From Thermotogota bacterium (GTDB lineage: Bacteria; Thermotogota; Thermotogae; Thermotogales; Thermotogaceae): a DNA stretch of 57,056 nt. This document shows, piece by piece, positions 9,071-29,969 of this stretch. The DNA is taken from the NCBI GenBank assembly GCA_030550515.1, contig JAUQPE010000017.1, positions 1 through 57,056 of the forward strand, read 5' to 3'. A program made the position numbers and the translations under genes. The stretch's first letter is position 1. Every line of letters begins with the position of its first letter. A model generated the notes under the pieces. The model saw nothing but the letters and a program-made list of their open reading frames with translations, did no database searches and was not told the DNA's origin.

Positions 9071-9079
9071 ATTATACCA
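9071..9079 (-). promoter_or_regulatory. Extended -10 promoter of the riboswitch/B12 operon
   Basis: The minus strand reads TGGTATAAT, a perfect TATAAT with a TGn extension, about 8 bases before the estimated RNA start near 9063. No clear -35 box is seen at 17 bases, which extended -10 promoters tolerate. The box overlaps the stop codon of fliW. Confidence 0.6.
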
Positions 9080-9521
9080 TCGCTTTGCTTCTCTCGAGTT
9101 CCTCAGAGATCTTGTGTCTGAGTCCGTAGCCTTGATCGTACAGGATGACCTGTCTTCCCTTCTTGATCGTGGGGTTTATCAGGATGGGAGCCAGGAGGTT
9201 CACGGTGGCATCCTCGGGTTTTCCCGGCGGAATGGTTACAACCGAGAGCAGGATCAGACCTTCTTTCCCAGTGACCGACAGCTTCTCCAGGTCTTCCTGA
9301 GGGATTTCCGGGTCGTAGTCCACCCTCACCAACCTTGGATCGACGACCGGAAGGCCTACCTCCTCGTCTTCAACCGAGAGGAGCCAACCTATCGGATACG
9401 TCTCCTCTGGAAACACCAGTACGAATCTCTTCAGGTGTTCGAAACCCGGCACACCCTCTTCGAAGACGATCACGTCTTCGTCCTTCAAGTTCAGTTCCCC
9501 CAACTTCGTTTTGACGAGCAA
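9072..9521 (-). CDS. fliW: Flagellar assembly factor FliW
   Basis: FliW binds flagellin and antagonises the RNA-binding regulator CsrA, so it couples flagellin synthesis to export. About 149 residues. The core motif VFEEGVPGFEHLKRFVLV, WLLSVEDEEVGLPVVDP and a C-terminal NPTIKKGRQVIL are family features. Start choice: ATG 9527 touches the flgL stop (TGATG) but is only 2 bases from GAGG. TTG 9521 is 8 bases from it and gives MLVKTKLGEL, which aligns with the T. maritima homologue as I recall it. It is the last gene of the flgM-flgN-flgK-flgL-fliW operon. Its TAA stop lies inside the -10 box of the next operon. Confidence 0.9.
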   Translation of the reverse strand: MLVKTKLGELNLKDEDVIVFEEGVPGFEHLKRFVLVFPEETYPIGWLLSVEDEEVGLPVVDPRLVRVDYDPEIPQEDLEKLSVTGKEGLILLSVVTIPPGKPEDATVNLLAPILINPTIKKGRQVILYDQGYGLRHKISEELERSKAMV

Positions 9522-9526
9522 GCCCA

Positions 9527-10432
9527 TCACCTCACAAAGTCCACGAGTGTGAGTTGAAGAACGTGAGCCGCGGATTTCAAAGCAGCCTGTAACACCGCTT
9601 GTTCCGTCGTCAACTTGGAGATCACTTCCGTGATGTCCGCATCCCTTTCCTTCGACAGGTATTCGGTGAAGAAGAAGTTCAGATCCTCCAGTCGACTCCC
9701 GATCATCTCCAACATCTTGCTCGTTCCTCCGATCTCTCCTATCACCTTCATGACGTTCTCCTCGAAGATCGAGAGGTTCTTCAGGGAGATCTCTGAGATC
9801 CACCTCGAAACCCTTTCTTCCGTCTTGAGCTTTTTCACCGCTTCATCGATCACTTGAAAGATGTTGCGACCGTCTGGCAACCTGAAGACTTCATCTGCTG
9901 TAACGCCGTACTCGACCGTGTGACCCAACGCGAGAATGTACCTCTTCTTCGAGGCCTCCGGAGGGATCATTATCTTCCACTCATCACCTTCCCTTCTGAC
10001 GGGTGGCGTGAACGCGTCGTAACCTCCGAACACGTACTCGTTGCCAACCCTGGTGTTGGCTATCTCCACCAAGTTCTCGTTTATCTTCTCCATCTCCTCG
10101 GCGATCGCTCGCCTCTCGTCTTGAGAGAGGGTATCGTTGGCAGCTTGTACCAGGAGCTCCCTCAGGCGTTGAACCAACGAGGAGACCTTTTGGATAGCGC
10201 TGTCGTAGGCGTTGACGTAAGTTTGGACGTGATCGATGTTCTCCTTGAACCTCGTGATCTCCCTCAGCCTCGTCATGATGTCGCTGGCCCTCGTGGCGAC
10301 GACCGCGTTGTCGCTGGGATATTTCACCTTGTAACCCGAAGAGAGCTGCTCGTGGAGTTTCGAGATCCTTCGAAGCGAGGACTGGATGTTGAGGAAGACG
10401 TTGTCGCTAATCATCTTGTTGGTGATCCTCAC
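9527..10432 (-). CDS. flgL: Flagellar hook-associated protein 3 (hook-filament junction)
   Basis: Structural junction protein between FlgK and the flagellin filament; it is secreted by the flagellar type III system. The N-terminus RITNKMISDN with LHEQLSSGYKVKYPSDN and the C-terminus ending in a helical LQAALKSAAHVLQLTLVDFVR-like segment are the paired terminal helices of the flagellin/FlgL family. Length is about 301 residues. The longest frame starts at GTG 10441, overlapping the flgK stop. GTG 10432 is 8 bases after GAGG and gives the usual MRITN beginning, so it is preferred. Confidence 0.92.
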   Translation of the reverse strand: MRITNKMISDNVFLNIQSSLRRISKLHEQLSSGYKVKYPSDNAVVATRASDIMTRLREITRFKENIDHVQTYVNAYDSAIQKVSSLVQRLRELLVQAANDTLSQDERRAIAEEMEKINENLVEIANTRVGNEYVFGGYDAFTPPVRREGDEWKIMIPPEASKKRYILALGHTVEYGVTADEVFRLPDGRNIFQVIDEAVKKLKTEERVSRWISEISLKNLSIFEENVMKVIGEIGGTSKMLEMIGSRLEDLNFFFTEYLSKERDADITEVISKLTTEQAVLQAALKSAAHVLQLTLVDFVR

Positions 10433-10437
10433 GCCGA

Positions 10438-13008
10438 TCACCTCACCATGTTCACGATCGTCGCGAGCATCTCGTCAATGACTGTTATCAACTTCGCGGC
10501 GGCGTTGAAGGCGTGCTGGTACCTGATCATGTTCGTCATCTCCTCGTCGAGGGAAACACCTTTCACGCTTTCCCTGGCGTTGTCTATTTCTTGCCTCAAA
10601 AGTTCCGTGTTCAACTTCAACTTGTTCGAGGTCTCCGCCTCCACACCTAGTTCTCCGATGAGCCCCCCGAAGAAATCGTAAAAGCTCTCTTTACCGTTGG
10701 ACAGTAACCTTCTCGTGTACAGCTCGTACAACCTCTTCATTACCTCCACGTTGGCCCCACCGACCGCCCTGATGGCCGTGGCGTTCCAGTCGTTGTTTCT
10801 TGCGGCAAGACCGATATCCACGGCAAGGTTCCCAGGATTCTTGGCAAGGCTCGAACTGACCTCGAACTGGTACACCAAGTTCAACGGTTCATCCAAAGAG
10901 GCCTTGTCAAACGTCAAGAGGTCGGCTATTCTGAAAATCCCCTTCAGCGTGTTGAAGTCGTACTCTCTGGAAAAGAGCTTGAAGGGAACCGTCCAGTCTT
11001 GTGTGGAGGGATCCGCGTCTGGATCTATCAAACCCAGAGCTTCGAACAACCCCTGTGGACCTTCTATCTCCACCGCCCTCAGATCGAAATCGTACAGAGA
11101 GGCCGCCCTGAGGACGAAGAAGCGGTGGGGAGTAAGTTCCGCGAGAACACCCGTGCCCTTCTCGTTCACCTTCCGTACCAGGTCTTCGAGCGTGTCAACG
11201 GTTGGATCGAACTCTATCCTCGTGGCACCGATCTTGATACTGAAACTCTGAGTCGGATCGAAACCGTTTTGTCCATAAAAGATGTTCTCCAAAGTGTCCG
11301 AATACTTGAGGACGTTGTAGTTCCTCAAGAAGGCGTTCGAGATCGTCAGAAAATCGTCGTCTCCCACCACGCTCACCCTGGAAAAGTCGAAACCCAAAGA
11401 CTCATCGGGCAGTACCAAGAGCATCCTCTCGCCCGTTGTGGGGTCGCTGTAGATGTGCGCCCTGAGTCGCGAGGAACTGTTGATCGAATCCCTGATCGCC
11501 TCGAGTGACACCCCGCCAGTCAGGTCTATATCCACGTCCTCCCTCACCCTCGAACCATCCAGCAAGGTGTACTCCAACCTCAAGCTGTAGACTTTGTTCT
11601 CCAAATCCGAAAGCGCGCTCTCCCTCAACGTTAGAAAGCCACGCGTTTCCGTCTCAAATCCCATACTCTTGAACGCATCTCCAAGAGAGATGAAAAGCTT
11701 GTCGCGGAGATCTCCCGTGTCGCTCAAGTACAGCCTGTAACCTCCCGCGTGCCCCCCAACACCAAGACTCGTCGACAAGAGATCCCATGTGTCCACAACG
11801 TCTCCTATCGTTTCGCCTTTTTGAACGGTCCTTTCGGCAAAAGATCCACCGAAGGCGATGATCAGATCGTTTCCACTGAAAATTCTGTTTCTCACTTCTT
11901 CCTGAGTGGACGCGTTTCTCAGTCCCGTCACCACGTGGTATGGACCCTGCTCGAGTCTTCTGTTCCCCTTGACCCTGAAGATGGCTGGATCCGACGAGGT
12001 CGACTCTATCTTTTTGAAGAAGTCCAAGCCCGTGACCAGCCCAGTGATGTCGAAGCCATCCCGATGGACGAGGTTCACCGTGTCCGTCAGGTACAGCACG
12101 AACTCGTCGAGCTTTCTCATGTACTTCACCAGTATCGAATCCCTCAGATCGAACAAAGCTTTCAACTTTCCACCGTTCACGTTGAGTTTCGCGCTTCTAA
12201 CGAATATTTCGTAATAACCTCTACCGTAGGGTCTTTCGGCCAACCTCAGCTCGTTGTAGACGGAACCATTCAGCACGATCTGGTCCCCTATCCTCAGGGT
12301 GATCTGACCGTCCTTGGACTCCGCGTAGGACAAGTCCACCAAGGTGGAAAGCTCGTCGAGTATCCTGTCCCTCTCGTCGAGAAGATCGTTTGGCGGCGAG
12401 TTCAACGCGATGCCGATCCTGACCTTTTCGTTTATGTCCGCGAGCCTTTTGAGCATTTGGTTTATCTCGGCCACCCTCTGCTTGAGCTCGTTGTTGATAT
12501 CGTCCCTGAGTTGCCAGAGCCTGCTGTAGAGATCCCTCACCTGCATCGTCATCTGCTGGGCGTACGCTACAACTTGTCCCTTCGCCGCGGGGTTTGCGGG
12601 ATCTGCCATCACCTGCTGTAGAGAGTTCCAAAACGAATCCACCAAGTTTCTTATCCCATTCTCGCCGGGTTCCATCAACAACTTCTCCACGTATTGGTAA
12701 TTCGTGTACACCGTGTCCCAATACGCGTACCTGTTGCTCACCTGCCGGTACTGGATGTCCAGAAACAGGTCTCTCAGTCGCTCTATCGTCTTCACCCTCG
12801 CCCCCGTTCCTATCTGGAGGGGAACCGAGGGCTGCGTGAGGGTGGTGAGGGGTATGGGGGGAGTTGCTTCGATCACGGGTCTTTGCCTGGAATAACCCGG
12901 CGTGCTCGCGTTGGCGATGTTGTGGGCAACAACGTTCATGGCAAGCTTGTGAGTGTACACGCCCAAGAGAGCCGTGTTCAAGGTTCCATGGAGCGGTATG
13001 TCCGGCAT
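10438..13008 (-). CDS. flgK: Flagellar hook-associated protein 1
   Basis: First hook-filament junction protein. The N-terminal rod/hook motif (LNTALLGVYTHKLAMNVVAHNIANASTPGYSRQ, residues about 9-41) and the C-terminal heptad-rich segment (SLDEEMTNMIRYQHAFNAAAKLI) are diagnostic. At 856 residues it is much longer than E. coli FlgK (547). The extra length lies in the central, surface-exposed region. ATG 13008 has GGGGAGG 7 bases upstream and follows the flgN stop by one base. It is the third gene of the flagellar operon, followed by flgL. Confidence 0.93.
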   Translation of the reverse strand: MPDIPLHGTLNTALLGVYTHKLAMNVVAHNIANASTPGYSRQRPVIEATPPIPLTTLTQPSVPLQIGTGARVKTIERLRDLFLDIQYRQVSNRYAYWDTVYTNYQYVEKLLMEPGENGIRNLVDSFWNSLQQVMADPANPAAKGQVVAYAQQMTMQVRDLYSRLWQLRDDINNELKQRVAEINQMLKRLADINEKVRIGIALNSPPNDLLDERDRILDELSTLVDLSYAESKDGQITLRIGDQIVLNGSVYNELRLAERPYGRGYYEIFVRSAKLNVNGGKLKALFDLRDSILVKYMRKLDEFVLYLTDTVNLVHRDGFDITGLVTGLDFFKKIESTSSDPAIFRVKGNRRLEQGPYHVVTGLRNASTQEEVRNRIFSGNDLIIAFGGSFAERTVQKGETIGDVVDTWDLLSTSLGVGGHAGGYRLYLSDTGDLRDKLFISLGDAFKSMGFETETRGFLTLRESALSDLENKVYSLRLEYTLLDGSRVREDVDIDLTGGVSLEAIRDSINSSSRLRAHIYSDPTTGERMLLVLPDESLGFDFSRVSVVGDDDFLTISNAFLRNYNVLKYSDTLENIFYGQNGFDPTQSFSIKIGATRIEFDPTVDTLEDLVRKVNEKGTGVLAELTPHRFFVLRAASLYDFDLRAVEIEGPQGLFEALGLIDPDADPSTQDWTVPFKLFSREYDFNTLKGIFRIADLLTFDKASLDEPLNLVYQFEVSSSLAKNPGNLAVDIGLAARNNDWNATAIRAVGGANVEVMKRLYELYTRRLLSNGKESFYDFFGGLIGELGVEAETSNKLKLNTELLRQEIDNARESVKGVSLDEEMTNMIRYQHAFNAAAKLITVIDEMLATIVNMVR

Positions 13009-13009
13009 C

Positions 13010-13456
13010 TCATGACCTCCCCAGAAATCTGTTCCCACTTTCGGGTCTCAAAGTACCATCCCTCTGGTAGAGAATCTCCTTCGAACCCAGACCGCTCAAA
13101 AAATCTATGTAACGAAGGTGAAACTCGATGGCACCTCTCAGCCTCTCCACGTCGAACACCAGATCGTTTAACTCCTTGAAGAAATCGCTCAAAGTAACCA
13201 CCACTTCTTCATCTTTTCCGTACACATCCAACAAGTCCAGAAGTTTCACCCCTTCCCCGTGGAGTCGTAACACGCCCTCCAACTCTCCGTTCACCCTTTC
13301 AAGCTCCAGGGAGAGTTCTTCAAGCTTCGAGATGATCGCGTTGAGCGATTCGAAATCTTTTGCGACAACCGCCTTTAGCTCCTCACCCAACAACTCCCTG
13401 AGCTTTCTCATCAACGCGGTTTTCTCGCCCAAAACCTCGATGACCTTTTCCCTCAT
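13010..13456 (-). CDS. flgN: FlgN-type flagellar export chaperone
   Basis: Small, strongly helical protein of 148 residues, rich in Leu, Glu and Lys (for example ISKLEELSLELERVNGELE). FlgN chaperones keep FlgK and FlgL soluble and deliver them to the export gate. Recognition rests on size, coiled-coil character and position between flgM and flgK; sequence conservation in this family is low. ATG 13456 overlaps the flgM stop (ATGA). The flgK start follows its own stop by one base. Confidence 0.72.
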   Translation of the reverse strand: MREKVIEVLGEKTALMRKLRELLGEELKAVVAKDFESLNAIISKLEELSLELERVNGELEGVLRLHGEGVKLLDLLDVYGKDEEVVVTLSDFFKELNDLVFDVERLRGAIEFHLRYIDFLSGLGSKEILYQRDGTLRPESGNRFLGRS

Positions 13457-13798: not shown

Positions 13799-15217
13799 AT
13801 GTCAGTCGTTCAAAGGACGTTGGCTTTTTCCTTCGGGACACTCTTGTCGCGTCTCACCGGTTTGGTGAGGGATACAATCCTTGCAAGCGTTTTTGGGGCT
13901 TCCACACTCTTGGACGCTTACTACGTCGCGATAATCTTTCCCTTTTTCTTGAGAAGGACCTTCGCCGAAGGGGCGATGACCTCCGCCTTCCTTCCCCTGT
14001 ACAACAACCTCGAAACCGAAGAGGAAAAACAGGCCTTCGTATCCGCCGTGCTCACGTCCTTGGGTTTGGTAACGCTCTCGATAACCGTTTTCGTCGAGAT
14101 CTTTCCTTCCGTGATCCCAGCCATCTTCTCAACGGGAGCCAGTGGCGAGACAAAGCTCCTCGCGACGAGACTAATCAGGATAACCGCCCCTTTCGTCGTT
14201 CTGGAATTCGTCTGGGCGCTCTTTTACGCGTTGCACAACAGCCAGCACAGGTACTTCCTGCCCGCAATGACGCCTTTGTTTTCCAACGTCGGTGTGATGG
14301 TTGGTGCCCTCACGGGAAACGTGGTCCTTGCGACTTGGGGTTTCACACTGGGTAACCTCGTCGCCGTGCTCGTGCTGTTGCCAAGGAACTTCAGATACCG
14401 GCCGACTCTGAAGGGGCTGGGGAACTTCTACAAGATGTTCCTGGTGACCTCACTCACCATGGCCACATCGCAGGTGACGACTCTCGTGGACACCAACGTG
14501 GCCTCTTTCCTTGGGGAGGGTTCCCTGTCCCTTGTGCAACTTGCGGGCAGGATCTATCAGCTTCCATTGGGCATCTTCGGTGTGGCAGTTTCGACGGTGG
14601 CGCTTTCCACTTTGAGCCAGACGGACGATTACGAGAAAGATCTCGGGGATCTCTTCACCAAGAACTTCTTCTTCGCGCTTCCCGCTTCCCTGGGTCTTTT
14701 CTTGCTATCCAGGGAGTTGATCACTCTGTTCTTCGGTTACGGCGCGTTCGGCACGAGGGCTGTGGAAGAAGCGAGTAAAGTCCTGGCGATGTACGCCCCA
14801 GGACTTCTGTTCGTATCCGTCTTCAACTTGCTTTCCCGCGCGCGACACGCCGCTTTGGACACGAAGACGCCCTTCGTAGCGATGCTGATCGTGTCCGTTT
14901 CCAACGCGATCTTGGACGTCGTGCTTGGATTCACCCTGGGAGTCAGCGGCATCGCCCTTGCGACCACCTTGTCTTCCATCCTGGGGACGACTTACCTCAT
15001 CTTGAGGCACGGATTCAAGCCTGACTGGAGGGCTATCATAAAGATCGCGATCGCCAGTGGCGTCATGGGGGTCTTCACGTATTCCTTCAAATTACTCTTT
15101 CATGGCAGGATTTGGACGGTCACAAACGTAGCGTTGAGCGTCGCGTTGTTCTTGATCGTTGGAAAAATTCTCAAGATCGAGGAAGTCAGGGAGCTCAAGA
15201 GTACATTATTGCGCTGA
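13799..15217 (+). CDS. murJ: Lipid II flippase MurJ (MviN family)
   Basis: Polytopic membrane protein of 472 residues that moves lipid-linked peptidoglycan precursor across the inner membrane. The N-terminal motif TLLSRLTGLVRDTILASVFGAS with LDAYYVAIIFPFFLRRTFAEGAMTSAFLPLY (residues about 15-62) is the classic MviN signature. About 13-14 hydrophobic helices follow. ATG 13799 has AGGAGG 9 bases upstream. It is a single-gene transcription unit between two oppositely oriented operons; its 3' end overlaps the Memo-family gene by 23 bases. Confidence 0.94.
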   Translation: MSVVQRTLAFSFGTLLSRLTGLVRDTILASVFGASTLLDAYYVAIIFPFFLRRTFAEGAMTSAFLPLYNNLETEEEKQAFVSAVLTSLGLVTLSITVFVEIFPSVIPAIFSTGASGETKLLATRLIRITAPFVVLEFVWALFYALHNSQHRYFLPAMTPLFSNVGVMVGALTGNVVLATWGFTLGNLVAVLVLLPRNFRYRPTLKGLGNFYKMFLVTSLTMATSQVTTLVDTNVASFLGEGSLSLVQLAGRIYQLPLGIFGVAVSTVALSTLSQTDDYEKDLGDLFTKNFFFALPASLGLFLLSRELITLFFGYGAFGTRAVEEASKVLAMYAPGLLFVSVFNLLSRARHAALDTKTPFVAMLIVSVSNAILDVVLGFTLGVSGIALATTLSSILGTTYLILRHGFKPDWRAIIKIAIASGVMGVFTYSFKLLFHGRIWTVTNVALSVALFLIVGKILKIEEVRELKSTLLR

Positions 15218-16031
15218 GGTAACCCACCACCTCCAGGTAATCACCCGAGACGTCACCGCTGGTCGCGTGTTTCAACACCTTCCTCTCCTTAAAACCGAGG
15301 TTCAACAAGACGGCGATCCCACCGTAACCACACACGCTGACGTCTTCTTGCGCCAGGTACGTGTAGAGCAGATTTGCGTCCCCTTTCTCTATCGCGTCTA
15401 TGATAAGGGAGTCTTTCCTAAGGGTGGTGTTTTGATCTTCATAGTGGTTGAGATCCGTCGACGCGACGATCAGGACGCTCTTCTTTCTCTCCATAACGAC
15501 TTTCAAGGCCTTGGCCAGATCGGCACTAACCTTCGGACCTTGATCCATGAGGCAAATGGGAACTATCGAGAAATTTTGAAACACAAACTGCAAAAACGGC
15601 AGCTGGACTTCTATCGAGTGTTCCCTGATGTGTGAGAGCGTGTCCTCTTCCGCGTATTCGGAGTTCTCCAAGATCAGATCCGCGGTTTCCTCGTCCACCT
15701 CCACCTCACCAAGGGGTGTGATCCACTTACCGGATCGCCACACCCCAACACGTTTTCCCAGTCCCGTGTGGTTTGGTCCAATGACGATGACCGTTTCTGG
15801 CCTACCGAACCTTGCTACTTCCAAGTACCCCCAAGCCGCCACCGGCCCGCTGTAGACGTAGCCGGCGTGAGGCGAGATCAACCCCACCGGCGATTCCAGA
15901 GGCGAAGGTTTAGGTTCGGGCAAACTCCCAGGTCCAATCCTTCTGTCTAAAAAGCAGAGCCTCACGTGTTGTAGGAGTTCGTCCTTTTTGGCTGGATAGA
16001 AGAAACCGGAAACGGCCGGGCTCCTGTTCAC
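15195..16031 (-). CDS. Memo-family protein (AmmeMemoRadiSam system protein B)
   Basis: 278 residues, MEMO1 fold related to class III extradiol dioxygenases. Visible conserved elements are GLISPHAGYVYSGP (His in the putative metal site), VIGPNHTG, HSIEVQLPFLQ, STDLNHYE and SVCGYGG. Function in bacteria is not settled. It is often grouped with an AMMECR1 protein and a radical SAM enzyme; neither is adjacent here, though a PflX-type radical SAM protein is encoded near 40 kb. It is the last gene of the pilus operon and overlaps the secretin stop by 4 bases (ATGA). The 3' end overlaps murJ. Confidence 0.88.
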   Translation of the reverse strand: MNRSPAVSGFFYPAKKDELLQHVRLCFLDRRIGPGSLPEPKPSPLESPVGLISPHAGYVYSGPVAAWGYLEVARFGRPETVIVIGPNHTGLGKRVGVWRSGKWITPLGEVEVDEETADLILENSEYAEEDTLSHIREHSIEVQLPFLQFVFQNFSIVPICLMDQGPKVSADLAKALKVVMERKKSVLIVASTDLNHYEDQNTTLRKDSLIIDAIEKGDANLLYTYLAQEDVSVCGYGGIAVLLNLGFKERKVLKHATSGDVSGDYLEVVGYLSAIMYS

Positions 16032-19000
16032 GGTTCCACCACCCTCACCGTAACGAAGATTGTGAGGTCTCTCTTCTGTTTCTCTTCCGTCTTGGTTCTG
16101 AAGAGACGACCGATGATGGGTAAATCCCCCAAGAAGGGAAGCTTCGTTTCCGTGACGTTCGTGAATTCGCGCGTGAGCCCACCTATGACTATCGTGGAGT
16201 TGTTCCTGACGATGAGGAAGGTCTTAGCCTCCCTAGTTCTCTCGCCAGGTATGTTCTGCACGTAGTTTCCAGGTTCGCTGGCTTTGACGAAGAGATCGAC
16301 CTCTATCGTGTCATCGCCCCTCACGTGCGGCGTGATCCGAAGCTCGATACCCGTCTCCAGGAACTGGACTTCGGGTGTGCCGTCCCCGTTCGTGTCGGTA
16401 ATGTAGGGGATACGGTCTCCTATGAGTATCCTGGCCTCCTTACCGCTCACCGTCACGACACGCGGGCTAGCGAGGATATCGCCTAGACTTCCCTGAGTTC
16501 TGTCCGCCACCTGAAGTGTTAGAGTGGACCCCAGCACGCTGCTGATGATCCTCTCAAAGTTGAGGTAATCGGAGACGTTGAAAGTGAAAGTCATACCGCC
16601 CGAGCCCACGTTCACGTTCGGTGCGTTCGCTGAGGGTCCAACGAGTCCGATGTTGATGCTCTCGTTCAAACTGCTCAAGAGGGATCTGTCCACCATCATT
16701 GCGGATATTTCCACTTGTTTCGTCGGTTTGGAGATCTTTCTCACTATCTCGTCTATCTCGGCCTTCACGGTTTCGGAGATGCCCGTCACTATCATGAAAT
16801 TGTTCAGAGCGTCGACGTAGACCGTCCCACCATAAAACTCTATCAGCGCCTTCACTTGATCGAAGTTGTGGGAGATCTCGTACACGTACCTCCTGGTGGG
16901 ATCCTGCTTGGTTTTGTAGATCACGTAGGCGTTGTCTTTCCTGTCGAAAACGTACCCGTAGTTTTTCCCAACGATACCCACAAAGTTGTCCCAAGATACG
17001 TTGTCGACGAAGAGCGTGACCTTCTCGGTTGGAACGTCCGCGAACACGATCGAGATACCCAGTTTCCTCGCGGCTTCCTTGATCAATTCAAACAGGGGGA
17101 CGTCCTCGGCTTTCACGGAAATCTTGTCCTTCATAACCGTGATGTACTCTTTGGTTTGGGTTTCTTCGACTTGTTTGATCAACCTCTCCGCTCTTTCGAC
17201 CACGTCTTTTGGTCCCAGCAGTAAGATGTAGCCGAGCTTGGGGAACGCCTCGATCTTCAGATCGGAAAAGATCTTTCCTAGATAGGATACGACCTCGTTC
17301 AAATCCAAGTTGGCTGGTATCGGCACGGTCTTTCTTTCGGTTTTTTCGGAAACTTTCGAAACTTTCTCGCTGAAGAGTTTGTATACCTCTTCGACTTTCT
17401 GCCTCTTGGAAGCCGGCGCTTCCACCAGAACGACACCTATCTTGTCCAGATAGATCACCTGCTTCACATCCGACACGAACGCTTCCAAGAAGGCTTTGAA
17501 CTGCTCAAATGGGAACCCGCTATCCACTTCAAAGATGACTCGCTCGAAAACGTATTCCCTGTAAACCACCGAGAACCTTTTCTGGAAGGTTTCGAAAACT
17601 TCCAACACTTTCTGGACATCGTCTTGCGCACCACGAACAACGATCAAGGCCAACTTCTCGAGTTTCGTCGCAGAAACCTCGGGGTAAACTTCTTTGGAGA
17701 AATTCAAGAATTCGTCGATGGGGAAATCCTTCGGAATATCCACGAAGACGGCAATTTCTTTCTCTTTAACCTCGCCGAGTTTGGCCAAGACGTCTTCAAA
17801 GAGTTTCTTAGCTTGCTCTACAACATCTTTCGTTCCAAAGACGACAGCCAGGTCACCGAGTAGCTCGTAAGCCACTCCCGTACTACTCGCCACCAAGGCC
17901 ATCAACCTATCCGTTCCCGCCACCCACTTCGGTATCCTCAAAACCTCCCTTGTCTCCTCGCTTTTCAGGGTCGACAAGCGATCCAAGAAGGCCTGCGCCT
18001 CTTCCACTCTCTTCCTCTCACCGATCAACAACACGCCTGTGTCCAAGAACTCCACCGAGACACCATAAACTTGTGCTAACAAGTTCTTCACGACTTCTTG
18101 GGGGAGCCCCACCTTCCTGTCGACTATTTTCATCGTCTTTTGCTCGGCAACGAGTTCCTCCAGTTCTTTTGCCGCATCTGAAAGTACCTTCTCGTCTCGT
18201 GAAGACAACATCACCACGTTGAGCCCCGGGAAGGTGGAAACGGTTACTCCGTATTTTTCCCTGAGGAACGCCTTCACACCTTCGATGCCGTGTTCCGGAA
18301 TGGAAACGTTCAAGAACTTGAGGTGCTCTTTGGTCATTTCTTTCAGGTAATTCTCGGCTTTCAACAGGTCATCCTCGGTTCCCTCCAATATCAAGAACTT
18401 TCCTACCTTCTTGGTATCGACGTTGAAGAGCCTCTGAACTACCGCAAGCAATCCTTCTTCCAATTCGTTCTGAAATTCCATACAAATCGTCTTGAATCCT
18501 TTTCGACGCTCTCGTAGCAATGCCTCAAGCAGAGGTGATATACCATCGAAAACCTTTTTCGGGAGGTTGAACACCACCCTGAGGTTCTTTCCGTCCACAT
18601 TCAGAAGCCTCAGGCGATTTGAAGGCACTCCCAAAAACTCGACAGCAGCCTTCAGAAATTCTTCCTCCCCTTTCGATATCGTCATGGAGAAGACCTGTGA
18701 GCTCAACTCGAGGTTGTTCTCTGCCAAGAAATTCAAGAGTTCCTGCTCCTGATCTATTGGAACTTGACAGATCACCAGGTTCAGCTCCGGATGAGGTTCT
18801 GCTGAAATACCAAGGAGCAGCCTTATGAGCTTTGAGGCCGTTTCCGGATCGTAACTGTAGAAGGCGAACCGCTTGGTGGGGACGGTCGTCGGCTCCGCGA
18901 GTTTTTGTTCTTTCGCCTCCAGAAGTTTCAAGTACCTTTCGATCTTCGAGAGTGCCTCTTCACCGCCCGTGAGGATCACCCTCGAAATGGGTTTCAGGAT

Positions 19001-19882
19001 CTGGTACTCGAATTGGTAAACGTTCCTCAAACCGTCCAGGAGCTCGATCACCTGATCCACAGGGGCAGTAAAGACGATTTCTCTGCGTTGAAGGGGTGGG
19101 GAAACGGAAATCAAACTCGCTATCAAATCGTGTTCTTGAGCCGTTCCGTAGACAAAGAGAGCGGACTTTGAAGGCAAGTAGGCCAGTTTGTCGGGCGAGA
19201 TCAATGCCTTCAACTTTTCCACAAAACTCTGTTCACCTACCCTGTACACCCCCCAAAACCTCTGGAACCTCTCCGAAACCTCTTCGTACCTTCCCACGAA
19301 CATAGTCCCGTCCGGAAAGTAAGAGTAAGAAACGTCTCCAAGTGTTACGAGCACATCCCTGAGGGCATCTTCCGGCGCCACACCTACAAGTCTCATGTTG
19401 AGCGACAAATTCCTGACAGAATCGGCGATCACGACGTTCAAGTTCAAACGCTCGGCGAGGTATTTCAGAACGCTTTCAAAGCTCATCCCCTCAAAAACGA
19501 CGTCGAACCTCTCGTCGCTCCTTGGAAACTGCAGGAGGAAGACGTTGTTCTTCAGCTCGTAAGAGACTTGGGACGGTACCAAGAGGTTCACGAAGACTGT
19601 AAGGCCATTCCCCACGTTCACAACCCTCACCATTTCCACCGGTCCAACCGCAACTGGAAAGATCAACCTGTCACCACTCATCGTGACATCCTTCAAGAAG
19701 ACCGAATAAACCGTTTTCGAAGTGTTGGCTTCGACTCGTGCCTCCACGGGTCTTCCAGACAACACCAACTCGATCGACACCTTGCTCTCGGTTACCCTTG
19801 GTGTCACTTCCACCAAAGAAACCGCAAAACCAAGTGTGAAGAGTAAGGAAAGTATCAGAATGCAAGCTATTCTTCCTTTCAC
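16028..19882 (-). CDS. Giant secretin of a type IV pilus/type II-like system (PilQ type)
   Basis: Outer-membrane secretin, 1284 residues, about twice the usual PilQ length. Proposed order: signal peptide 1-20; AMIN-like beta domain about 22-118; STN/N0-like domain about 125-200; about eleven N1-like beta-alpha-beta modules of 50-65 residues between 205 and 907; a second STN-like domain about 910-992; a final N1 module 998-1051; secretin pore domain about 1055-1284. The pore domain has ASPRVVTVSGKEARILIGDRIPY, VQFLETGIELRITPHV and LPFLGDLPIIGRLF. The start is GTG 19882 with GGAGGGG about 8 bases upstream. Upstream genes pilO, pilN, pilM and pilC belong to the same system. Module counts come from reading repeated patterns, not from a profile search. 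Confidence 0.91.
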   Translation of the reverse strand: MKGRIACILILSLLFTLGFAVSLVEVTPRVTESKVSIELVLSGRPVEARVEANTSKTVYSVFLKDVTMSGDRLIFPVAVGPVEMVRVVNVGNGLTVFVNLLVPSQVSYELKNNVFLLQFPRSDERFDVVFEGMSFESVLKYLAERLNLNVVIADSVRNLSLNMRLVGVAPEDALRDVLVTLGDVSYSYFPDGTMFVGRYEEVSERFQRFWGVYRVGEQSFVEKLKALISPDKLAYLPSKSALFVYGTAQEHDLIASLISVSPPLQRREIVFTAPVDQVIELLDGLRNVYQFEYQILKPISRVILTGGEEALSKIERYLKLLEAKEQKLAEPTTVPTKRFAFYSYDPETASKLIRLLLGISAEPHPELNLVICQVPIDQEQELLNFLAENNLELSSQVFSMTISKGEEEFLKAAVEFLGVPSNRLRLLNVDGKNLRVVFNLPKKVFDGISPLLEALLRERRKGFKTICMEFQNELEEGLLAVVQRLFNVDTKKVGKFLILEGTEDDLLKAENYLKEMTKEHLKFLNVSIPEHGIEGVKAFLREKYGVTVSTFPGLNVVMLSSRDEKVLSDAAKELEELVAEQKTMKIVDRKVGLPQEVVKNLLAQVYGVSVEFLDTGVLLIGERKRVEEAQAFLDRLSTLKSEETREVLRIPKWVAGTDRLMALVASSTGVAYELLGDLAVVFGTKDVVEQAKKLFEDVLAKLGEVKEKEIAVFVDIPKDFPIDEFLNFSKEVYPEVSATKLEKLALIVVRGAQDDVQKVLEVFETFQKRFSVVYREYVFERVIFEVDSGFPFEQFKAFLEAFVSDVKQVIYLDKIGVVLVEAPASKRQKVEEVYKLFSEKVSKVSEKTERKTVPIPANLDLNEVVSYLGKIFSDLKIEAFPKLGYILLLGPKDVVERAERLIKQVEETQTKEYITVMKDKISVKAEDVPLFELIKEAARKLGISIVFADVPTEKVTLFVDNVSWDNFVGIVGKNYGYVFDRKDNAYVIYKTKQDPTRRYVYEISHNFDQVKALIEFYGGTVYVDALNNFMIVTGISETVKAEIDEIVRKISKPTKQVEISAMMVDRSLLSSLNESINIGLVGPSANAPNVNVGSGGMTFTFNVSDYLNFERIISSVLGSTLTLQVADRTQGSLGDILASPRVVTVSGKEARILIGDRIPYITDTNGDGTPEVQFLETGIELRITPHVRGDDTIEVDLFVKASEPGNYVQNIPGERTREAKTFLIVRNNSTIVIGGLTREFTNVTETKLPFLGDLPIIGRLFRTKTEEKQKRDLTIFVTVRVVEP

Positions 19883-19901: not shown

Positions 19902-20360
19902 TCACCTTATCGAGTAAAAAGCCCCACTGCGCGTGTCCAACACGATCAATCCCAAACTCGACGCGTACGCCACCGTGTAATCTCCGAAGTTTGGCGTTTC
20001 ACCCGTTATCTCAAGTTTTGTGCCGTCTTTGAGAAGGATTATTCTGATTCCCTCCTTGGAGCGGATGAAACCTAAAAACTTGTACTCGCCCACTCTCGGA
20101 AGCGCGAGGATGAGCTTGTCCGCCTCGTCTCTATCGAAGGCAAGCGCCACCGTTTGAAAGAGGAAAACGGGATGTTCAACCGTCCTCAAGGCCACCTCTT
20201 TCAGATCGGGCCTCACAAAAGTGTTCGCCAAAGTGCCCATGAGGTCTTCACGAGGAGTTTCAGAGACCAAACTTGGTTCCTGCCCGCGGGACAAGAATAA
20301 AAATGCGATGGCCCAAACAACTCCCAGGATCACCAGCAAGACCACCGTTCTCCGCGTCAT
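19902..20360 (-). CDS. Unrecognised single-pass membrane protein of the pilus operon
   Basis: 152 residues. A short basic start (MTRRT) precedes one hydrophobic helix (VVLLVILGVVWAIAFLFL); the rest is soluble and probably outside the membrane, ending in a beta-rich stretch with LKDGTKLEITGETPNFGDY. I do not recognise a family by sequence. Position between pilO and the secretin is where PilP is found in other type IV pilus operons, so a PilP-like linker role is possible, but the lipoprotein signal of PilP is absent. ATG 20360 overlaps the pilO stop (ATGA). Confidence 0.75.
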   Translation of the reverse strand: MTRRTVVLLVILGVVWAIAFLFLSRGQEPSLVSETPREDLMGTLANTFVRPDLKEVALRTVEHPVFLFQTVALAFDRDEADKLILALPRVGEYKFLGFIRSKEGIRIILLKDGTKLEITGETPNFGDYTVAYASSLGLIVLDTRSGAFYSIR

Positions 20361-20770
20361 TCTCTCACCCGCTCCGCAACGATCCTAACCACAACTCGCG
20401 GTGAGCCGAGGTCAAAACCGAGAAAATTCACGGGTATGCCGGATTTGTTGTTTATTTCCAATTCCCTGAGAGCTATCTTTTTGGTGGATAACAGCTGCGC
20501 CACCAGGCTTTCCGCTTCTCCAACGCTCACCGTGGAGACACCTTCCCCATAAGGGACATCCTGTGTCTCCTTTATGGCGCGCACGATCGTTTCGTACTCT
20601 CCCCTTCTGAGTAGGTACAACCTGTAGGCGCTCTGAAAGTTCTGAAGCTTTCCCTCCAACTTTCTAGTGTTGGAGAGGAATATTAGGAAGTCTGGCACGA
20701 TTAATCCAAAGATCAACGCCAACAGCAGCAATGTGGAAAACCAAACCGCGAATTTCCTGTTTATCGTCAT
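20357..20770 (-). CDS. PilO-like inner-membrane pilus assembly protein
   Basis: 137 residues: one N-terminal membrane helix (FSTLLLLALIFGLIVPDFLIFL), then a short helical region (LEGKLQNFQSAYRLYLLRRGEYE) and a C-terminal alpha/beta part. This resembles PilO/GspM-type proteins that join PilN in the inner-membrane alignment complex. The call rests mainly on topology and on position directly after pilN; sequence similarity is weak. The protein is shorter than typical PilO (about 200 residues). ATG 20770 follows the pilN stop by one base. Confidence 0.65.
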   Translation of the reverse strand: MTINRKFAVWFSTLLLLALIFGLIVPDFLIFLSNTRKLEGKLQNFQSAYRLYLLRRGEYETIVRAIKETQDVPYGEGVSTVSVGEAESLVAQLLSTKKIALRELEINNKSGIPVNFLGFDLGSPRVVVRIVAERVRE

Positions 20771-20771
20771 G

Positions 20772-21320
20772 TCATCTCCTCCTCAAAACAACCTTGTACT
20801 TCCTCAAATAGAAACCTTTTGGTAGAGGTTGATCGAATTCCTTTACCACTTCCACGGAAAAGGCGGGAGAGAAGTTGAGTTCTTCCTCCGCACTCGAAGA
20901 GACTTCGTAGAAGATTAACTCAAGAGTACCTTTCGTGTATTTTAGGTAATTCAAGTATCTTCCTCCAACCGAAAAGAGCCTCAACGTTTCTTCCAGAAAT
21001 TCCTCGTTTTCCTTTCTGAGGGTGAGAAAGTTGTTCAGGTTCTCGATCTTCCTTCTCAGATCCTTGAGTTGTTCTTGGAAAATCTTGATGGCCTTATCCA
21101 CTTCCTGCAGGTTTTTCCTGGAATCAAGGCTGAGGTTCACAGAGAAAGCCCTCAAGACATCCGCGTATCTCATTTTGAATTCTTCGACCGTTTGGGCTTT
21201 CAAAAAGCGAAAATAAGTGTGGAAAGCGAGAGGAGGCAAACACATGATCAAAACCAAGACGAGAAAAGTTGTGAGTTTTACCCTCCTTTTCTTATAGGGA
21301 TAAAGATTTAACTTTTCCAA
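20772..21320 (-). CDS. PilN-like inner-membrane pilus assembly protein
   Basis: 182 residues. The start MEKLNLYPYKKRR matches the short cytoplasmic NLxP peptide by which PilN docks into PilM. It is followed by one membrane helix (LTTFLVLVLIMCLPPLAFH) and a coiled coil at about 55-110 (EVDKAIKIFQEQLKDLRRKIENLN). The soluble end should lie in the periplasm. The start is TTG 21320 with a GGGAGG-type site upstream; it lies 29 bases inside pilM. Function: part of the PilMNO platform that connects the motor to the secretin. Confidence 0.76.
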   Translation of the reverse strand: MEKLNLYPYKKRRVKLTTFLVLVLIMCLPPLAFHTYFRFLKAQTVEEFKMRYADVLRAFSVNLSLDSRKNLQEVDKAIKIFQEQLKDLRRKIENLNNFLTLRKENEEFLEETLRLFSVGGRYLNYLKYTKGTLELIFYEVSSSAEEELNFSPAFSVEVVKEFDQPLPKGFYLRKYKVVLRRR

Positions 21321-22266
21321 GCTCCCTCCCCCCTCTCATCAGGAGGCCCAGCAAGCCGCACGGGACCTTCCCGCCCGTTTCCAGGACTATCCCCCTTTTC
21401 AAGACGGTACCCTCGTACTTTCCAGCGACGCTCTTGTAAACATCGGAAAAAAAATGAAGGTCAATCAGGTGATACTGTCGATCCAGCATCGACAGTTTCG
21501 CCTCGTCAAGGGACAGCTTCGCTTCCCTATCCAATTCCGCCAAGAAATCCAAAAAGTACGGTTCCAAAAAGCTCAAGTTTTCTCTCACGTTTCCGGTCAA
21601 CATCTCCCCGATGGGAATCCCCCGCGTGTCTTGAACCACGTAGAGGTAGTCCCAAAAGCTGGAGAAGATCAACCTGCAAGAGGTGTATTTTCCATCCCTC
21701 AAGGTGAGTATAGCGTAATAATCGTTGAGAAAGGAACAAATAACGAGCAGCGCGCTCGTTACTTTTTCTTTCCTCGTGTAGTACTCGAAGACCTCCAGGT
21801 ACTTCACGACGTCTGGAACGACGACATCCGCCTCCGGGAAACCGGAAAGCTTGAGCTTGTTGACGAAATCTTTAACCTGATCCTTTTTAGAGACGAAGAA
21901 CAGCCCGTTGTCCTCGTACCTGCTGAACAGGGCCACCTGAAGTTGTTCGGGAAGGATTCCAAGGTTCCTCGCAACTTCGATGACGGCGTAGTCTTTGACC
22001 ATCTTCGAAGTCACAGTCCTTGGAACCTTTAGGTTGACCATCAACACGTTCTCCATAGGTAGACTCGCGACCACGATGTCTTCCTCGTCCTTCTTAACCG
22101 ATTTGGAGAGGTTCTTTAAGACTTCGAAAGTCTTGTCAACGCCCTCCACAACCTCATAACTTTGCGAAACAAGACTCAACCTTCCGCCCCTTTTCCTTCC
22201 CCTTCCTACCCACACCGCATGCACGTTCACGTCGATCGCGAGAACGTCGTTGTAAAAGATCTGCAA
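21292..22266 (-). CDS. PilM-like actin-fold pilus assembly protein
   Basis: 324 residues, no membrane segment, begins with an actin-like first strand (DVLAIDVNVHAVWVG). PilM-type features are VVASLPMENVLMVNLKVPRT and KDYAVIEVARNLGILPEQLQV, which resemble the PilM region that binds PilN. Similarity to well-studied PilM is moderate; the call is strengthened by pilN, pilO and the secretin following in the standard order. The start is TTG 22266 with a GGGGGGTG site upstream. The 3' end overlaps pilN by 29 bases. Confidence 0.78.
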   Translation of the reverse strand: MQIFYNDVLAIDVNVHAVWVGRGRKRGGRLSLVSQSYEVVEGVDKTFEVLKNLSKSVKKDEEDIVVASLPMENVLMVNLKVPRTVTSKMVKDYAVIEVARNLGILPEQLQVALFSRYEDNGLFFVSKKDQVKDFVNKLKLSGFPEADVVVPDVVKYLEVFEYYTRKEKVTSALLVICSFLNDYYAILTLRDGKYTSCRLIFSSFWDYLYVVQDTRGIPIGEMLTGNVRENLSFLEPYFLDFLAELDREAKLSLDEAKLSMLDRQYHLIDLHFFSDVYKSVAGKYEGTVLKRGIVLETGGKVPCGLLGLLMRGGRELGKVKSLSL

Positions 22267-22279
22267 GGTAACACCCCCC

Positions 22280-22627
22280 TTACTTTATCCTCATCCTCCC
22301 CGTGGCAGGCTCTATCGTCACGCTCCAATTCTTTCCGATCACCGTACCCCCTCCACTCACGAACCCATTCACGTACACAACCTTCGGGAAAGTCTTGAAA
22401 GAAAAATCGAAAGTCACAAGCTCCCTCTTAAGTTTGTGTGGGTCGTAAAAGATCAACCTTCCATCACCAACCTCCAGATAACCGTTCTTCAGGGACCTCT
22501 CCCACATTCTGAAAAGTTTCACTTTAAAAATGTAAGGTTCGACGTCATCTCCAGGAACACAGAAAAGAAGCGACACCGTGACCGCTCCGACGATGAAGAA
22601 GGCGAGTAAAAATTCCAGTAGGCTCAT
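22280..22627 (-). CDS. Pseudopilin-like protein without a prepilin leader
   Basis: 115 residues. The N-terminus MSLLEFLLAFFIVGAVTVSLLF resembles a mature type IV pilin helix, including Glu at position 5, but there is no basic leader or Gly before a Phe as needed for prepilin peptidase. The frame upstream contains no start codon before it enters pilC; ATG 22627 overlaps the pilC stop (ATGA), and AAGGAG lies 9 bases before it. The rest is a small beta-rich domain. It could be a minor pilin that needs no processing or simply a one-helix membrane protein of the pilus system. Confidence 0.7.
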   Translation of the reverse strand: MSLLEFLLAFFIVGAVTVSLLFCVPGDDVEPYIFKVKLFRMWERSLKNGYLEVGDGRLIFYDPHKLKRELVTFDFSFKTFPKVVYVNGFVSGGGTVIGKNWSVTIEPATGRMRIK

Positions 22628-23823
22628 CCACCTATACTCCTTTGGAGTTGGAAGACCGTGGTGTATATGGAATAAGCCAAGAAAGCCACGAATCCCCCCA
22701 CTCCGGCTATCAAAAGAGGTTCCACAAGCGAAACAAGCTGTTTCACACCGTTTCTGACGATATCTTCGTAGAAGTCCGCCACTTTCTCCATGACTTCTTC
22801 CACTTTTCCTGTCTCCTCACCAGTTCCTATCATCTCGTAGACGAGTTGTGGAAAGACCTTGCTCTCTGCGAAAGTATCTCGGAGGGTCCTCCCTTCCTCT
22901 ATCATCCGAACCATTTCTTCTGCCTTCTCCATGATCCTGGGATTGTCGGAGGCGCGCGCCGCCATTCTGACGGCTTCCGTCACCCTCACACCACTTCCAA
23001 CTAAAATTCCGAGCGTTCTCGCGAATCTCTCGAGTCCCATGTTGTGTCTCAGCTTCCTCACAGGCGGAAACAGAATGGAGAGATACTCCTTCACGTAAGT
23101 TCCATACCTCGACTTCATCAACACGAACAAAGCCGCAAAAACACCCGCAACAACCGGAATGAACCAACCCCAGTTCGCCCCAAGGAACTCGTTCACCTTG
23201 AGAAGAAAACCTATCGTGGGGGACAGTGGTATGGAAGTTTCGAACGCTCGTATCAAGCTTGGAAGGATGTAAAAGCTGATCACCAGGACTATCACCACCG
23301 CGAAAACCAACACGAACATGGGATAAGCCATTGCCGATTTCACTTCGTCTTGTAGTCTCTTGGTGTTCTCGTAGTATTCCGCAGCCTTGTTCAGCGTCCT
23401 GTCCAACACACCGCCTTCTTCTCCCGCTTCCAACATGCTGACGAGCACGTTGTCAAAGACTCCGGTTTTTTTGAAAGCGTCGGCCAGCGTTGAACCCGCT
23501 TCCACGTCCAAGACGATGTCGAGAATGACTTTCCTGAACCTTCTGGAGAAGACCTCTTGTTTAGAGAGAACGTTCAAAGCGTCCTTTATCCTTATCCCAG
23601 CGGATATCATTATCGCAAGTTGTCTGCAAAAAGTGGCAATTTCAGCCACCGAAACGCTGAAAAAAGGAGATTTTTTCTTGAAGGCCCTCTCTTCCTCTAT
23701 GTTGACGACGACTAACCCTCGTTCTCCGAGAACGGAGATGGCCTTCAACTTGTTTTCGGCTTCTATGACGCCTCTTATCCTCCTTCCGCTCCCCTCCATC
23801 GCCACGTACCTGAAGAGAGGCAT
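22624..23823 (-). CDS. pilC: Type IV pilus inner-membrane platform protein PilC (GspF family)
   Basis: 399 residues. An N-terminal ~55-residue region is followed by two T2SSF domains (about 62-185 and 260-385), each with the EAGE-type motif: MLEAGEEGGVLDRTL near 130 and MIGTGEETGKVEEVM in the second copy. Three membrane helices lie at about 168-192, 218-236 and near 370-392. PilC anchors the extension motor under the pilus. No pilB, pilT or pilD gene is in this window, so the motors and peptidase must be encoded elsewhere. It starts one base after the ferritin-like gene. Confidence 0.93.
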   Translation of the reverse strand: MPLFRYVAMEGSGRRIRGVIEAENKLKAISVLGERGLVVVNIEEERAFKKKSPFFSVSVAEIATFCRQLAIMISAGIRIKDALNVLSKQEVFSRRFRKVILDIVLDVEAGSTLADAFKKTGVFDNVLVSMLEAGEEGGVLDRTLNKAAEYYENTKRLQDEVKSAMAYPMFVLVFAVVIVLVISFYILPSLIRAFETSIPLSPTIGFLLKVNEFLGANWGWFIPVVAGVFAALFVLMKSRYGTYVKEYLSILFPPVRKLRHNMGLERFARTLGILVGSGVRVTEAVRMAARASDNPRIMEKAEEMVRMIEEGRTLRDTFAESKVFPQLVYEMIGTGEETGKVEEVMEKVADFYEDIVRNGVKQLVSLVEPLLIAGVGGFVAFLAYSIYTTVFQLQRSIGG

Positions 23824-27857: not shown

Positions 27858-29908
27858 CCCTTCCAACTCCTCATGAGTTCCTCAAAGTCGTATCCTTTCT
27901 TCTCCACCCGATCTTTGAGGAAATGCAGGAACTCGTCTTCGCTCATCGTCTTCACCCTTAAGGCTTTGGCTTTCTCTAGCTTGGAACCGGGATTTTCCCC
28001 CACGATGAGGTAATCCACGTTGCGACTGACGTTGTCCACCACCTTCGCGCCCATCTTTTCTAAGAATTCCAGGATCTCTTCCCTCGTGAAGCGCCTCAGG
28101 GTACCCGTCACCGCGAACGTCAAACCTCTCAAGACATCGTACTTTGTGACCTTTTCCTCCGTCTTCACCCCGGCCTTTTTCAACTTCTCCAGTATCTCTC
28201 TGGTCTTTGGATTTCTGAAGTATTCGACGATGCTCCGCGCCACTTCCGGTCCGATTCCCTCGATATCTTGCAAGGTCTCGTACGAGGCGTTCGCGAGGGC
28301 ATCCAACGACCCGAAGTGCTCGGCTAGGGTCTTGGCAATCTTTTGACCGACCATAGGAATGCCGAGTCCCGCGATGAGCTTGTAGAGTGGCCTACTTTTA
28401 GCTTCTTCGATTTCCTGAAGCAATTTCGCTATCGTTCTTTGCCCCACCCCAGGTCCCAGTTGGGCTAGCTCGAAGGGCGTGAGATAGAATATATCCGCCA
28501 TGTCCTTCACGAGTCCCGAGTCCACTAACTTTTCAATGAACTTTTCCCCGAGCCCTTCCACGTCCAACGCATCCCGAGAAACGAACGTCTTCAACGCCCT
28601 CTTGAGCTTTGCAGGACAGTGTGGGTTGAGACACCTTATGGCCACTTCCTCGGGGGAGAGTTTTCCAACTTTTCCACCGCACACCGGACACGACTCCGGT
28701 GGTTCTATCTCCCTCTCAACACCCGTTCGAAGCTCGGGAATGGATTTCACTATCTGCGGGATGATCCCACCGGCCTTCTCCACGAACACGTGATCCCCGA
28801 TCCTTATGTCTTTTTCCTTTATATAGTCAAAATTGTGGAGGGACGCCCTTTTCACGACAGTTCCCGCCAGTTGAACAGGTTCCAATTCCGCAACCGGCGT
28901 GAGCACACCCGTTCTTCCCACCTGTATCGTGACATCGATAACCCTTGTCCTCGCCTGCTCGGCCGGGAATTTGAAGGCGATGGCCCAGCGCGGAGCTTTC
29001 GAAGTTTCTCCGAGGACCCTTTGGGAGTCGAACCCGTTCACCTTCACGACGACCCCATCCACCCAGTAGTCCAACTCCTTCTTCCTCTCCTTCCACTCGT
29101 TCCAGTAATCAACGACTTCCTGAATGTTCCTGCAGAGTCTGGAATGCGGGTTCACCTTGAAGCCCAACTCTTTCAAGAATTCCAGGGCTTCCCACTGAGA
29201 CTTCAAGCCGTACTTTTCGGGTTCGACGACGTAATAAATGAAGGAATCGAGTTTTCTCGAAGCCACTTCCGATGTGTCGAGCTGTCTCAAAGTTCCGGCA
29301 GCAGCGTTTCGAGGGTTGGCGAAGAGAGGAAGGCCTTCCTCTTGCCTCTCTTCGTTTATCCTTCTGAACTCGTCCACTGGCATGTAGATCTCGCCCCTGA
29401 CTTCCACGGTCAACGGTTTTCTGAGCCTCAAAGGTACACTCCTCACAGTCTTGACGTTCTCCGAGACATCTTCTCCTTCCAAACCGTCCCCTCTCGTCAA
29501 CGCCATTTTGAACCTTCCCTCTTCGTATCTCAGCGCGATGGAAACACCGTCTATTTTCAGTTCCGCTACGTACTCAACTTCCGCTTCTTGGAGAGTTTTC
29601 CTTATCCTTTTGTCGAACTCCAAAATCTCTTCTTCACTGTAGGTGTTGTCGAGACTCAACATGGGAACCGTGTGCCTTTCCGTTTTGAAACCTTCGAGAA
29701 CTCTTCCTCCCACCCTCTGGGTGGGAGAATCTGGCGTTACCAGTTCTGGGTATTTCTTCTCCAACTCGATCAGGCGCTTCATCAGCTTGTCGAATTCTTC
29801 GTCGGTGATCACAGGATCGTTGAGAACGTAGTAACGGTAATTGTGGTACTCTATCTCTTCACGCAGCTTTTCCACCTCTTCTATAATCTCTTTTGGGATT
29901 TCCCTCAT
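27854..29908 (-). CDS. ligA: NAD-dependent DNA ligase
   Basis: Seals nicks using NAD. 684 residues, the standard length. The N-terminal Ia domain has [20 protein letters not shown], the adenylation lysine is Lys118 in ELKIDG, then the OB fold, the zinc finger (CPVCGG, then CLNPHCP), helix-hairpin-helix repeats ([12 protein letters not shown]) and a C-terminal BRCT domain. ATG 29908 has GAGG 5 bases upstream. The 50 in-frame codons before it run back across the divergent promoter region and are not coding. It is the first gene of a 14-gene minus-strand run. Confidence 0.97.
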
Positions 29909-29933
29909 GGATACCTCACTCCTTTCCGGAGAT

Positions 29934-29948
29934 ATTATAGGATATAAT
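29934..29948. promoter_or_regulatory. Divergent -10 boxes between ligA and the membrane-protein gene
   Basis: The 61-base divergent gap holds TATAAT on the minus strand (29939-29934, 26 bases before the ligA ATG) and TATAAT on the plus strand (29943-29948, 22 bases before ATG 29970). The two are back to back. Neither has a good -35 box at 17 bases, so strengths are unclear. Confidence 0.4.
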
Positions 29949-29969
29949 CTCACAGGAGGAGCTGGTAGA

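Follow-up and report, generated by a model that had tools for sequence, protein, structure and literature searches.

The secretin gene and its neighborhood

The window, i.e., the whole stretch of 57,056 nucleotides that was analyzed, contains a gene for a PilQ-type secretin, which belongs to a pilus operon (Table 1). The ORF at 16028-19882 is real; it is located on the minus strand, starts with a GTG codon at position 19882, and encodes a product of 1284 amino-acid residues. Pfam recognizes the secretin pore (PF00263) at residues 1133-1283 with an E value of 7e-41, in agreement with the original prediction of a C-terminal secretin pore on a protein of this size. By sequence, the best relatives in the PDB are the pores of PilQ proteins, and the best NCBIfam model is TIGR02515 (PilQ), with a score of 173 bits vs. 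a cut-off of 284. The protein is a secretin on every feature tested, and it is PilQ-like by its context.

At the N-terminus is a block that is constant and contains the first of two STN domains. Eleven modules follow at residues 205-912, and the second STN domain, a single canonical N1 domain, and the pore complete the protein. The array is located where approximately 700 residues of repeats had been predicted between two STN-like domains; the STN-type matches in Pfam on either side of it, i.e., FecR_C at residues 128-165 and STN at residues 944-990, are both below threshold. Secretin_N is found by Pfam in a single copy above cut-off, at residues 858-907. A search of Pfam with the N-terminal beta-rich domain (residues 22-120), in which AMIN was sought, gave no match.

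Pfam and NCBIfam searches with the genes in the PilM, PilN, PilO, and PilP positions, both of the window and of its relatives, returned no family match, and these names are, therefore, positional. The genome from which the window stems contains two ORFs of the T2SSE family of 580 and 363 aa, the sizes of PilB and PilT; these two ATPases point to a retractable type IV pilus and not to type II secretion. The listed competence genes of Thermotoga maritima include TM0088 as pilQ and TM_0094 as pilC (PMC5637354), which fits the seven-gene order of the window.

The same genome also encodes a 383-aa secretin composed of an N1 domain and a pore without the array (G000:C9:66143-66595; L073:7466-8617) and, on another contig (G000:C19; L074), separate pieces, i.e., Secretin_N in a 431-aa frame and a short secretin in a 111-aa frame. 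Other genes in the window include one for a divergently placed membrane protein of 671 aa without a family match (29841-31856, plus strand) and, near the pilus operon, genes apparently encoding hook-associated proteins of the flagellum and flagellar assembly factors (9072-13456, minus strand).

Table 1. Secretin gene, its domains and modules (residue numbers in brackets), and neighboring genes in the window.
Feature	Position	Strand	Basis
Memo-like gene, constant downstream neighbor, orthology marker	15195..16031	-	Pfam Memo; adjoins secretin in all families tested
PilQ-type secretin gene	16028..19882	-	ORF; Pfam Secretin; TIGR02515 PilQ best NCBIfam family, below cut-off
Signal peptide (1-21)	19820..19882	-	By eye: basic start and hydrophobic stretch
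N-terminal beta-rich domain (22-120)	19523..19819	-	By eye; conserved across phylum; AMIN-like by PilQ position
First STN/N0-type domain (124-203)	19274..19513	-	FecR_C (STN-like) 128-165, below cut-off; weak alignment to PilQ of known structure
Module 1 (205-264), weakest	19091..19270	-	Profile comparison, E 0.003
Module 2 (265-328)	18899..19090	-	E 3.5e-6, probability 88%
Module 3 (335-393)	18704..18880	-	E 9e-7, probability 91%
Module 4 (394-458)	18509..18703	-	E 1.9e-5, probability 78%
Module 5 (461-516)	18335..18502	-	E 5e-10, probability 97%
Module 6 (517-580)	18143..18334	-	E 1.5e-4, probability 52%; modelled strand-helix-strand-strand-helix
Module 7 (581-640)	17963..18142	-	E 3.5e-14, probability 98%; modelled
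Module 8 (643-704)	17771..17956	-	E 3e-13, probability 98%
Module 9 (706-771)	17570..17767	-	E 1.6e-9, probability 96%
Module 10 (776-845)	17348..17557	-	E 2e-6, probability 89%
Module 11 (848-912)	17147..17341	-	Pfam Secretin_N, whole-protein E 1.2e-11, above cut-off; E 4e-11, probability 97%
Second STN domain (915-1000)	16883..17140	-	Pfam STN 944-990, E 2e-4, below cut-off
Canonical N1-type domain preceding pore (1003-1075)	16658..16876	-	TIGR02515 aligned from 1019; E 2e-4 vs. module profile
Secretin pore domain	16031..16657	-	Pfam Secretin 1133-1283; alignments to PDB PilQ/GspD
152-aa protein, N-terminal membrane helix, PilP position	19902..20360	-	Position; no family match; conserved synteny
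137-aa protein, N-terminal membrane helix, PilO position	20357..20770	-	Position alone
182-aa protein, N-terminal membrane helix, NLYP start, PilN position	20772..21320	-	Position; sequence by eye; conserved synteny
324-aa protein, PilM position	21292..22266	-	Position; conserved synteny; single copy in own genome
115-aa protein, N-terminal hydrophobic stretch, pseudopilin-like by eye	22280..22627	-	Conserved in family f1
PilC/GspF inner-membrane platform protein	22624..23823	-	Pfam T2SSF, E 1.6e-60

The module array

The array was first divided by eye into eleven tandem beta-alpha-beta-beta-alpha modules, as compared to the usual two to six. To obtain a module profile, the orthologues were searched iteratively, starting from six modules that had been chosen by eye in a single giant protein; the profile comprised 109 reference modules, from which the families f1 and f2 were left out. 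The window protein was aligned with eleven f1 and f2 orthologues, and slices of this alignment, with boundaries set by eye, were compared with the module profile, profile to profile. Modules 2-11 matched with E values from 1.5e-4 to 3.5e-14 and probabilities of 52-98%, and nine modules reached a probability of at least 78%, whereas none of 22 control slices from PilC, Memo, PilM-position, and MurJ proteins exceeded 6%. Identity to the first module is ~11-27%.

When 37 diverse modules were analyzed with Pfam, Secretin_N (PF03958) was the most frequent match (5/37, best E value 3e-6), followed by KH families. The N1 domain is KH-like. A profile of these 37 modules found no secretin among PDB sequences at E <0.05; hence, the modules are remote members, and the claim on their fold rests on Pfam and on a structural model. 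This AlphaFold model covers modules 6 and 7 (residues 516-640), for which the remaining modules of the protein supplied the alignment, and shows strand-helix-strand-strand-helix twice at a pLDDT of 85.9. Its Foldseek matches in the PDB are N domains of XcpQ/GspD (4e9j, 5ngi, 3ezj) and tandem KH domains. 4e9j was matched with an E value of 1.8e-4, and the best TM-score among the matches listed was 0.56 (5ngi, XcpQ N0-N1-N2); global TM-scores are modest because the relative placement of the two modules differs. A single-sequence AlphaFold prediction of residues 200-915 (716 residues) had a pLDDT of 42 and was used neither for counting nor for fold searches. From the model and the sequence profiles, the modules are predicted to have the N1/KH fold.

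Both the count and the N1-like nature, as judged from the profile and the two-module model, agree with the original prediction of about eleven extra N1-like modules, and the intervals it gave as examples (470-517, 520-580, 583-637, and 645-702) correspond to modules 5-8. Its figure of at least eight N1-like folds holds by sequence profile, whereas structurally only two modules have been modelled well.

Variation of the array across the phylum

In a search of 103 genomes of the phylum, orthologues were found in most, and 33 full-length orthologues with their flanking DNA were used for comparison. The neighborhood, running from pilC through the secretin gene to the Memo gene, is kept. The ends of the secretin are constant, with an N-terminal block of ~205 aa and a C-terminal block of ~370 aa, and, across the phylum, differences in protein length are confined to the array. 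With module number taken as array length divided by 64.5, the array ranges among full-length orthologues from 356 aa (~5.5 modules) to 3954 aa (~61 modules), and measures 711 aa (11.0 modules) in the window protein. Orthologues of family f10 are only 631-910 aa long, corresponding to ~1-5 modules by subtraction, and adjoin the Memo gene in nine of ten genomes checked. Over the whole phylum, the estimates extend from 2-5 modules in f10 to ~61 modules in a protein of 4560 aa.

At the other extreme are the secretins of family f9, with 2631, 3888-3914, and 4560 aa and an estimated 32-61 N1-type modules (L063:3709-17391 in genome G023, L065, L066, L067, L068, and L061); in these proteins, between 24 and 49 modules score at E <0.01 with the module profile. 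An assembly artifact as the origin of these genes was ruled out, since they are open throughout in several genomes, including single-contig assemblies, with the same synteny. In one further f9 genome (G021), also assembled as a single contig, the secretin gene is broken into two frames, of 1372 and 883 aa, and has a gap in another frame (L062:10075-17930), which is a frameshift or a sequencing error in a long repeat gene.

Two of the giant arrays differ by inserts of 267, 268, and 133 aa, i.e., of four, four, and two modules. The protein of locus L063 contains exact repeated blocks at residues ~1471-1550 and 2146-2255, with offsets of 268 and 875 residues, which represent recent block duplication of whole modules; longer-range peaks of similarity in this protein, 3, 7, and 10 listed modules apart, point to super-repeats. 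Inserts of whole-module size together with the recent exact duplication at an offset of 268 in the largest protein indicate that the array grows and shrinks by whole modules. In line with the divergence of the modules, the largest gene shows no repeat at the DNA level in Tandem Repeats Finder.

A scan of contigs with the single window protein returned solely an Omnitrophica secretin of 558 aa. The TM0088-type homologue of Thermotoga is 51% identical to the window protein over the whole length and has the same eleven modules in the g4 genomes. Thus, the array is not private to the window genome. This syntenic homologue is probably TM0088 itself; as a lead, one of the genomes (G090) is presumably that of T. 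maritima MSB8. No published description of the repeat architecture of TM0088 was found.

Array length and the Omp-alpha rod

In T. maritima, the coiled coil of Omp-alpha, with 316 residues, sets a distance of ~50 nm (PMC3387000; for further background on this envelope yardstick, see PMC5082667). Omp-alpha (OmpA1) and SlpA-type connectors are envelope spacers whose length varies between species (PMC3387000; PMC9388160). Unlike the secretin, Omp-alpha is a coiled coil with an SLH anchor and not a channel; it is used here as a yardstick, not as a relative, and was chosen as such after the variation in array length had been seen. Omp-alpha-type proteins, with an N-terminal SLH domain, a helical middle, and a C-terminal membrane helix, were collected from the same genomes. 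Rod length was calculated as ORF length times 0.1485 nm minus a fixed deduction, and it is not a measured envelope width. SLH proteins of 680-736 aa in f9 (G023:C1:68396, G025:C1:2725390, G027:C40; L125, L133) were rejected as Omp-alpha, as their C-terminal part is non-helical. Six genomes of genus g10 in family f3 (G068, G069, G070, G071, G072, and G075; e.g., L154) contain, beside an ordinary Omp-alpha, SLH proteins of 980-1139 aa in which a long region is helical; these may represent a second envelope spacer of much greater length.

Array length covaries with Omp-alpha rod length, with a Spearman coefficient of 0.81 over 31 genomes. For independent contrasts, with a tree based on PilC, Memo, and the secretin pore, r was 0.70 (p 1e-5), and 0.82 (p 4e-7) when f9 was omitted. 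The sign is the same in only 21 of the 30 contrasts, so that much of the signal comes from a small number of large ones. The pooled correlation within families at the genus level was 0.83 (permutation p 0.0002), or 0.92 without f9, and was stable when the mean, longest, or shortest paralogue was taken and when single families were dropped. In family f10, examined after the hypothesis had been formed, rho was 0.91, with 3.5 ± 0.8 nm of rod per module.

The partial correlation given a proxy for growth temperature was 0.80. The lengths of PilC, the PilM-position and PilN-position proteins, and Memo showed no relation, and the part of PilQ outside the array showed a weak rank correlation (0.50) that was not significant by contrasts. 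Genome size was weakly related, but this relation was gone when f9 was omitted, and it was rejected as a driver. The idea that the stalk bridges an unusually wide gap, which was marked as inference when first proposed, thus gains comparative support from the covariation of array and rod after correction for phylogeny, within families, and in f10.

When f9 is excluded, each module corresponds to 3.2-5.5 nm of rod, with a slope that varies with the treatment. Families differ in intercept, with fewer modules per rod length in f10 and f11. The f9 genomes, with 32-61 modules and Omp-alpha proteins of 414-587 aa (rods of ~50-70 nm), have a slope of 0.6 nm per module.

A proposed stalk across a wide envelope

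In the window protein, tandem N1-type modules probably lengthen the stalk of a type IV pilus secretin, so that it reaches across an envelope that Omp-alpha rods keep unusually wide. The lengthened periplasmic stalk would let the outer-membrane pore reach the pilus machine in the inner membrane. The protein would oligomerize like other secretins, with each module forming one ring, and a stack of such rings may act as a tube through which the pilus is guided, as well as DNA, the latter as in naturally competent Thermotoga. Module number would then be selected to match envelope width through the gain and loss of whole modules. The slope of 3.2-5.5 nm, when set against the six rings plus pore in 35 nm of Thermus PilQ (see below), makes one ring per module plausible, and eleven modules would add ~35-45 nm, which is of the same order as the estimated 48-nm rod of the window genome. 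A literature search returned no experimental structure or tomogram of the assembly.

In f9, a stack of 32-61 rings would measure ~100-200 nm vs. rods of ~50-70 nm, so that the simple rule of one ring per module would overshoot two- to threefold and fails there. Either the gap is wider than the rod in these bacteria, as in a ballooned toga, or the array is arranged differently. The more far-reaching proposal that the stalk is a length-matched tube, tuned to the Omp-alpha width by gain and loss of whole modules, and that in f9 (probably Kosmotoga and Mesotoga) this tube contains 30-60 modules and is well over 100 nm long, is made tentatively, with somewhat less than an even chance of being right.

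The excess in f9 also speaks for a different arrangement, in which the modules are strung like beads on a long flexible chain, or packed into a compact helical structure, and the array serves as a tether or contacts the peptidoglycan; its length would follow envelope width because a tether, too, has to span the envelope. The linkers between the modules, short but variable, and the occurrence of KH-type folds in proteins that do not form rings would fit such an arrangement. We consider it rather unlikely, as the modules are as a rule contiguous with the secretin pore and two STN domains, and 3-5 nm per module outside f9 is near the ring spacing and exceeds what a compact chain would need. Moreover, N1 and N2 domains form rings in every secretin of known structure (PMC5745081).

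The recent block duplications in the giant arrays, and the fact that the f9 giants exceed any obvious need, could also reflect neutral growth of the array by recombination between similar modules, in which case the correlation with Omp-alpha would stem from shared lineage history or from a general drift in periplasmic lengths. This is less probable still: the correlation survives contrasts and within-family permutation and held in f10, and neither the control proteins of the same operon, nor genome size once f9 is omitted, nor the temperature proxy explains it. Furthermore, between the window genome and a neighboring genus, the array is 51% identical with an equal number of modules. Finally, in type II systems, N0/N1 domains have binding partners, GspC among them, and the strong divergence of the modules would suit binding platforms for envelope or pilus proteins (e.g., the toga or PilP-like partners) with length as a secondary effect, but such divergence is equally expected of spacer rings and no partner gene in the operon expands in parallel, which makes this explanation very improbable.

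A lengthened stalk bears on the question of how trans-envelope machines cope with envelopes of different width. Here, one component varies approximately tenfold or more while its ends are constant, and an independent spacer gives the width, which means that the question can be tested by counting, with module number, rod length, and membrane distance compared from species to species. It also bears on DNA uptake across a 50-nm gap by naturally competent Thermotoga.

Comparison with known secretins

The predicted fold of the modules is common to the N0-N1-N2 region of GspD/XcpQ of type II secretion. These proteins differ from the window protein in having at most three N1-type domains and in belonging to a different system, without a PilT-like retraction ATPase.

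The closest parallel is PilQ of Thermus thermophilus, a protein of 757 aa with six stacked N rings and a pore, together 35 nm long; its authors proposed that the six rings span most of a wide periplasm (PMC5745081). Like the window protein, it is the type IV pilus secretin of a deep-branching diderm and has extra beta-alpha-beta-beta-alpha N domains. The fold is already known from Thermus, as is the principle of more N rings for a wider periplasm. What is new here is how many modules there are, that the array varies tenfold within a single orthologous gene whose ends are constant, that giant forms exist, and that array length covaries with a spacer protein; a literature search limited to open licences found no paper that describes this array. 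If the modules indeed form rings, PilQ of Thermotoga would have ~14 of them, compared with the six in Thermus that had been described as exceptional, and the giant forms would rank with the longest channels of this kind that are known. The window secretin differs from Thermus PilQ in that its extra modules are located between two STN domains and in that their number can be compared with the length of a spacer protein throughout the phylum. The six rings of Thermus stand against a predicted ~14 here and up to ~60 in the relatives.
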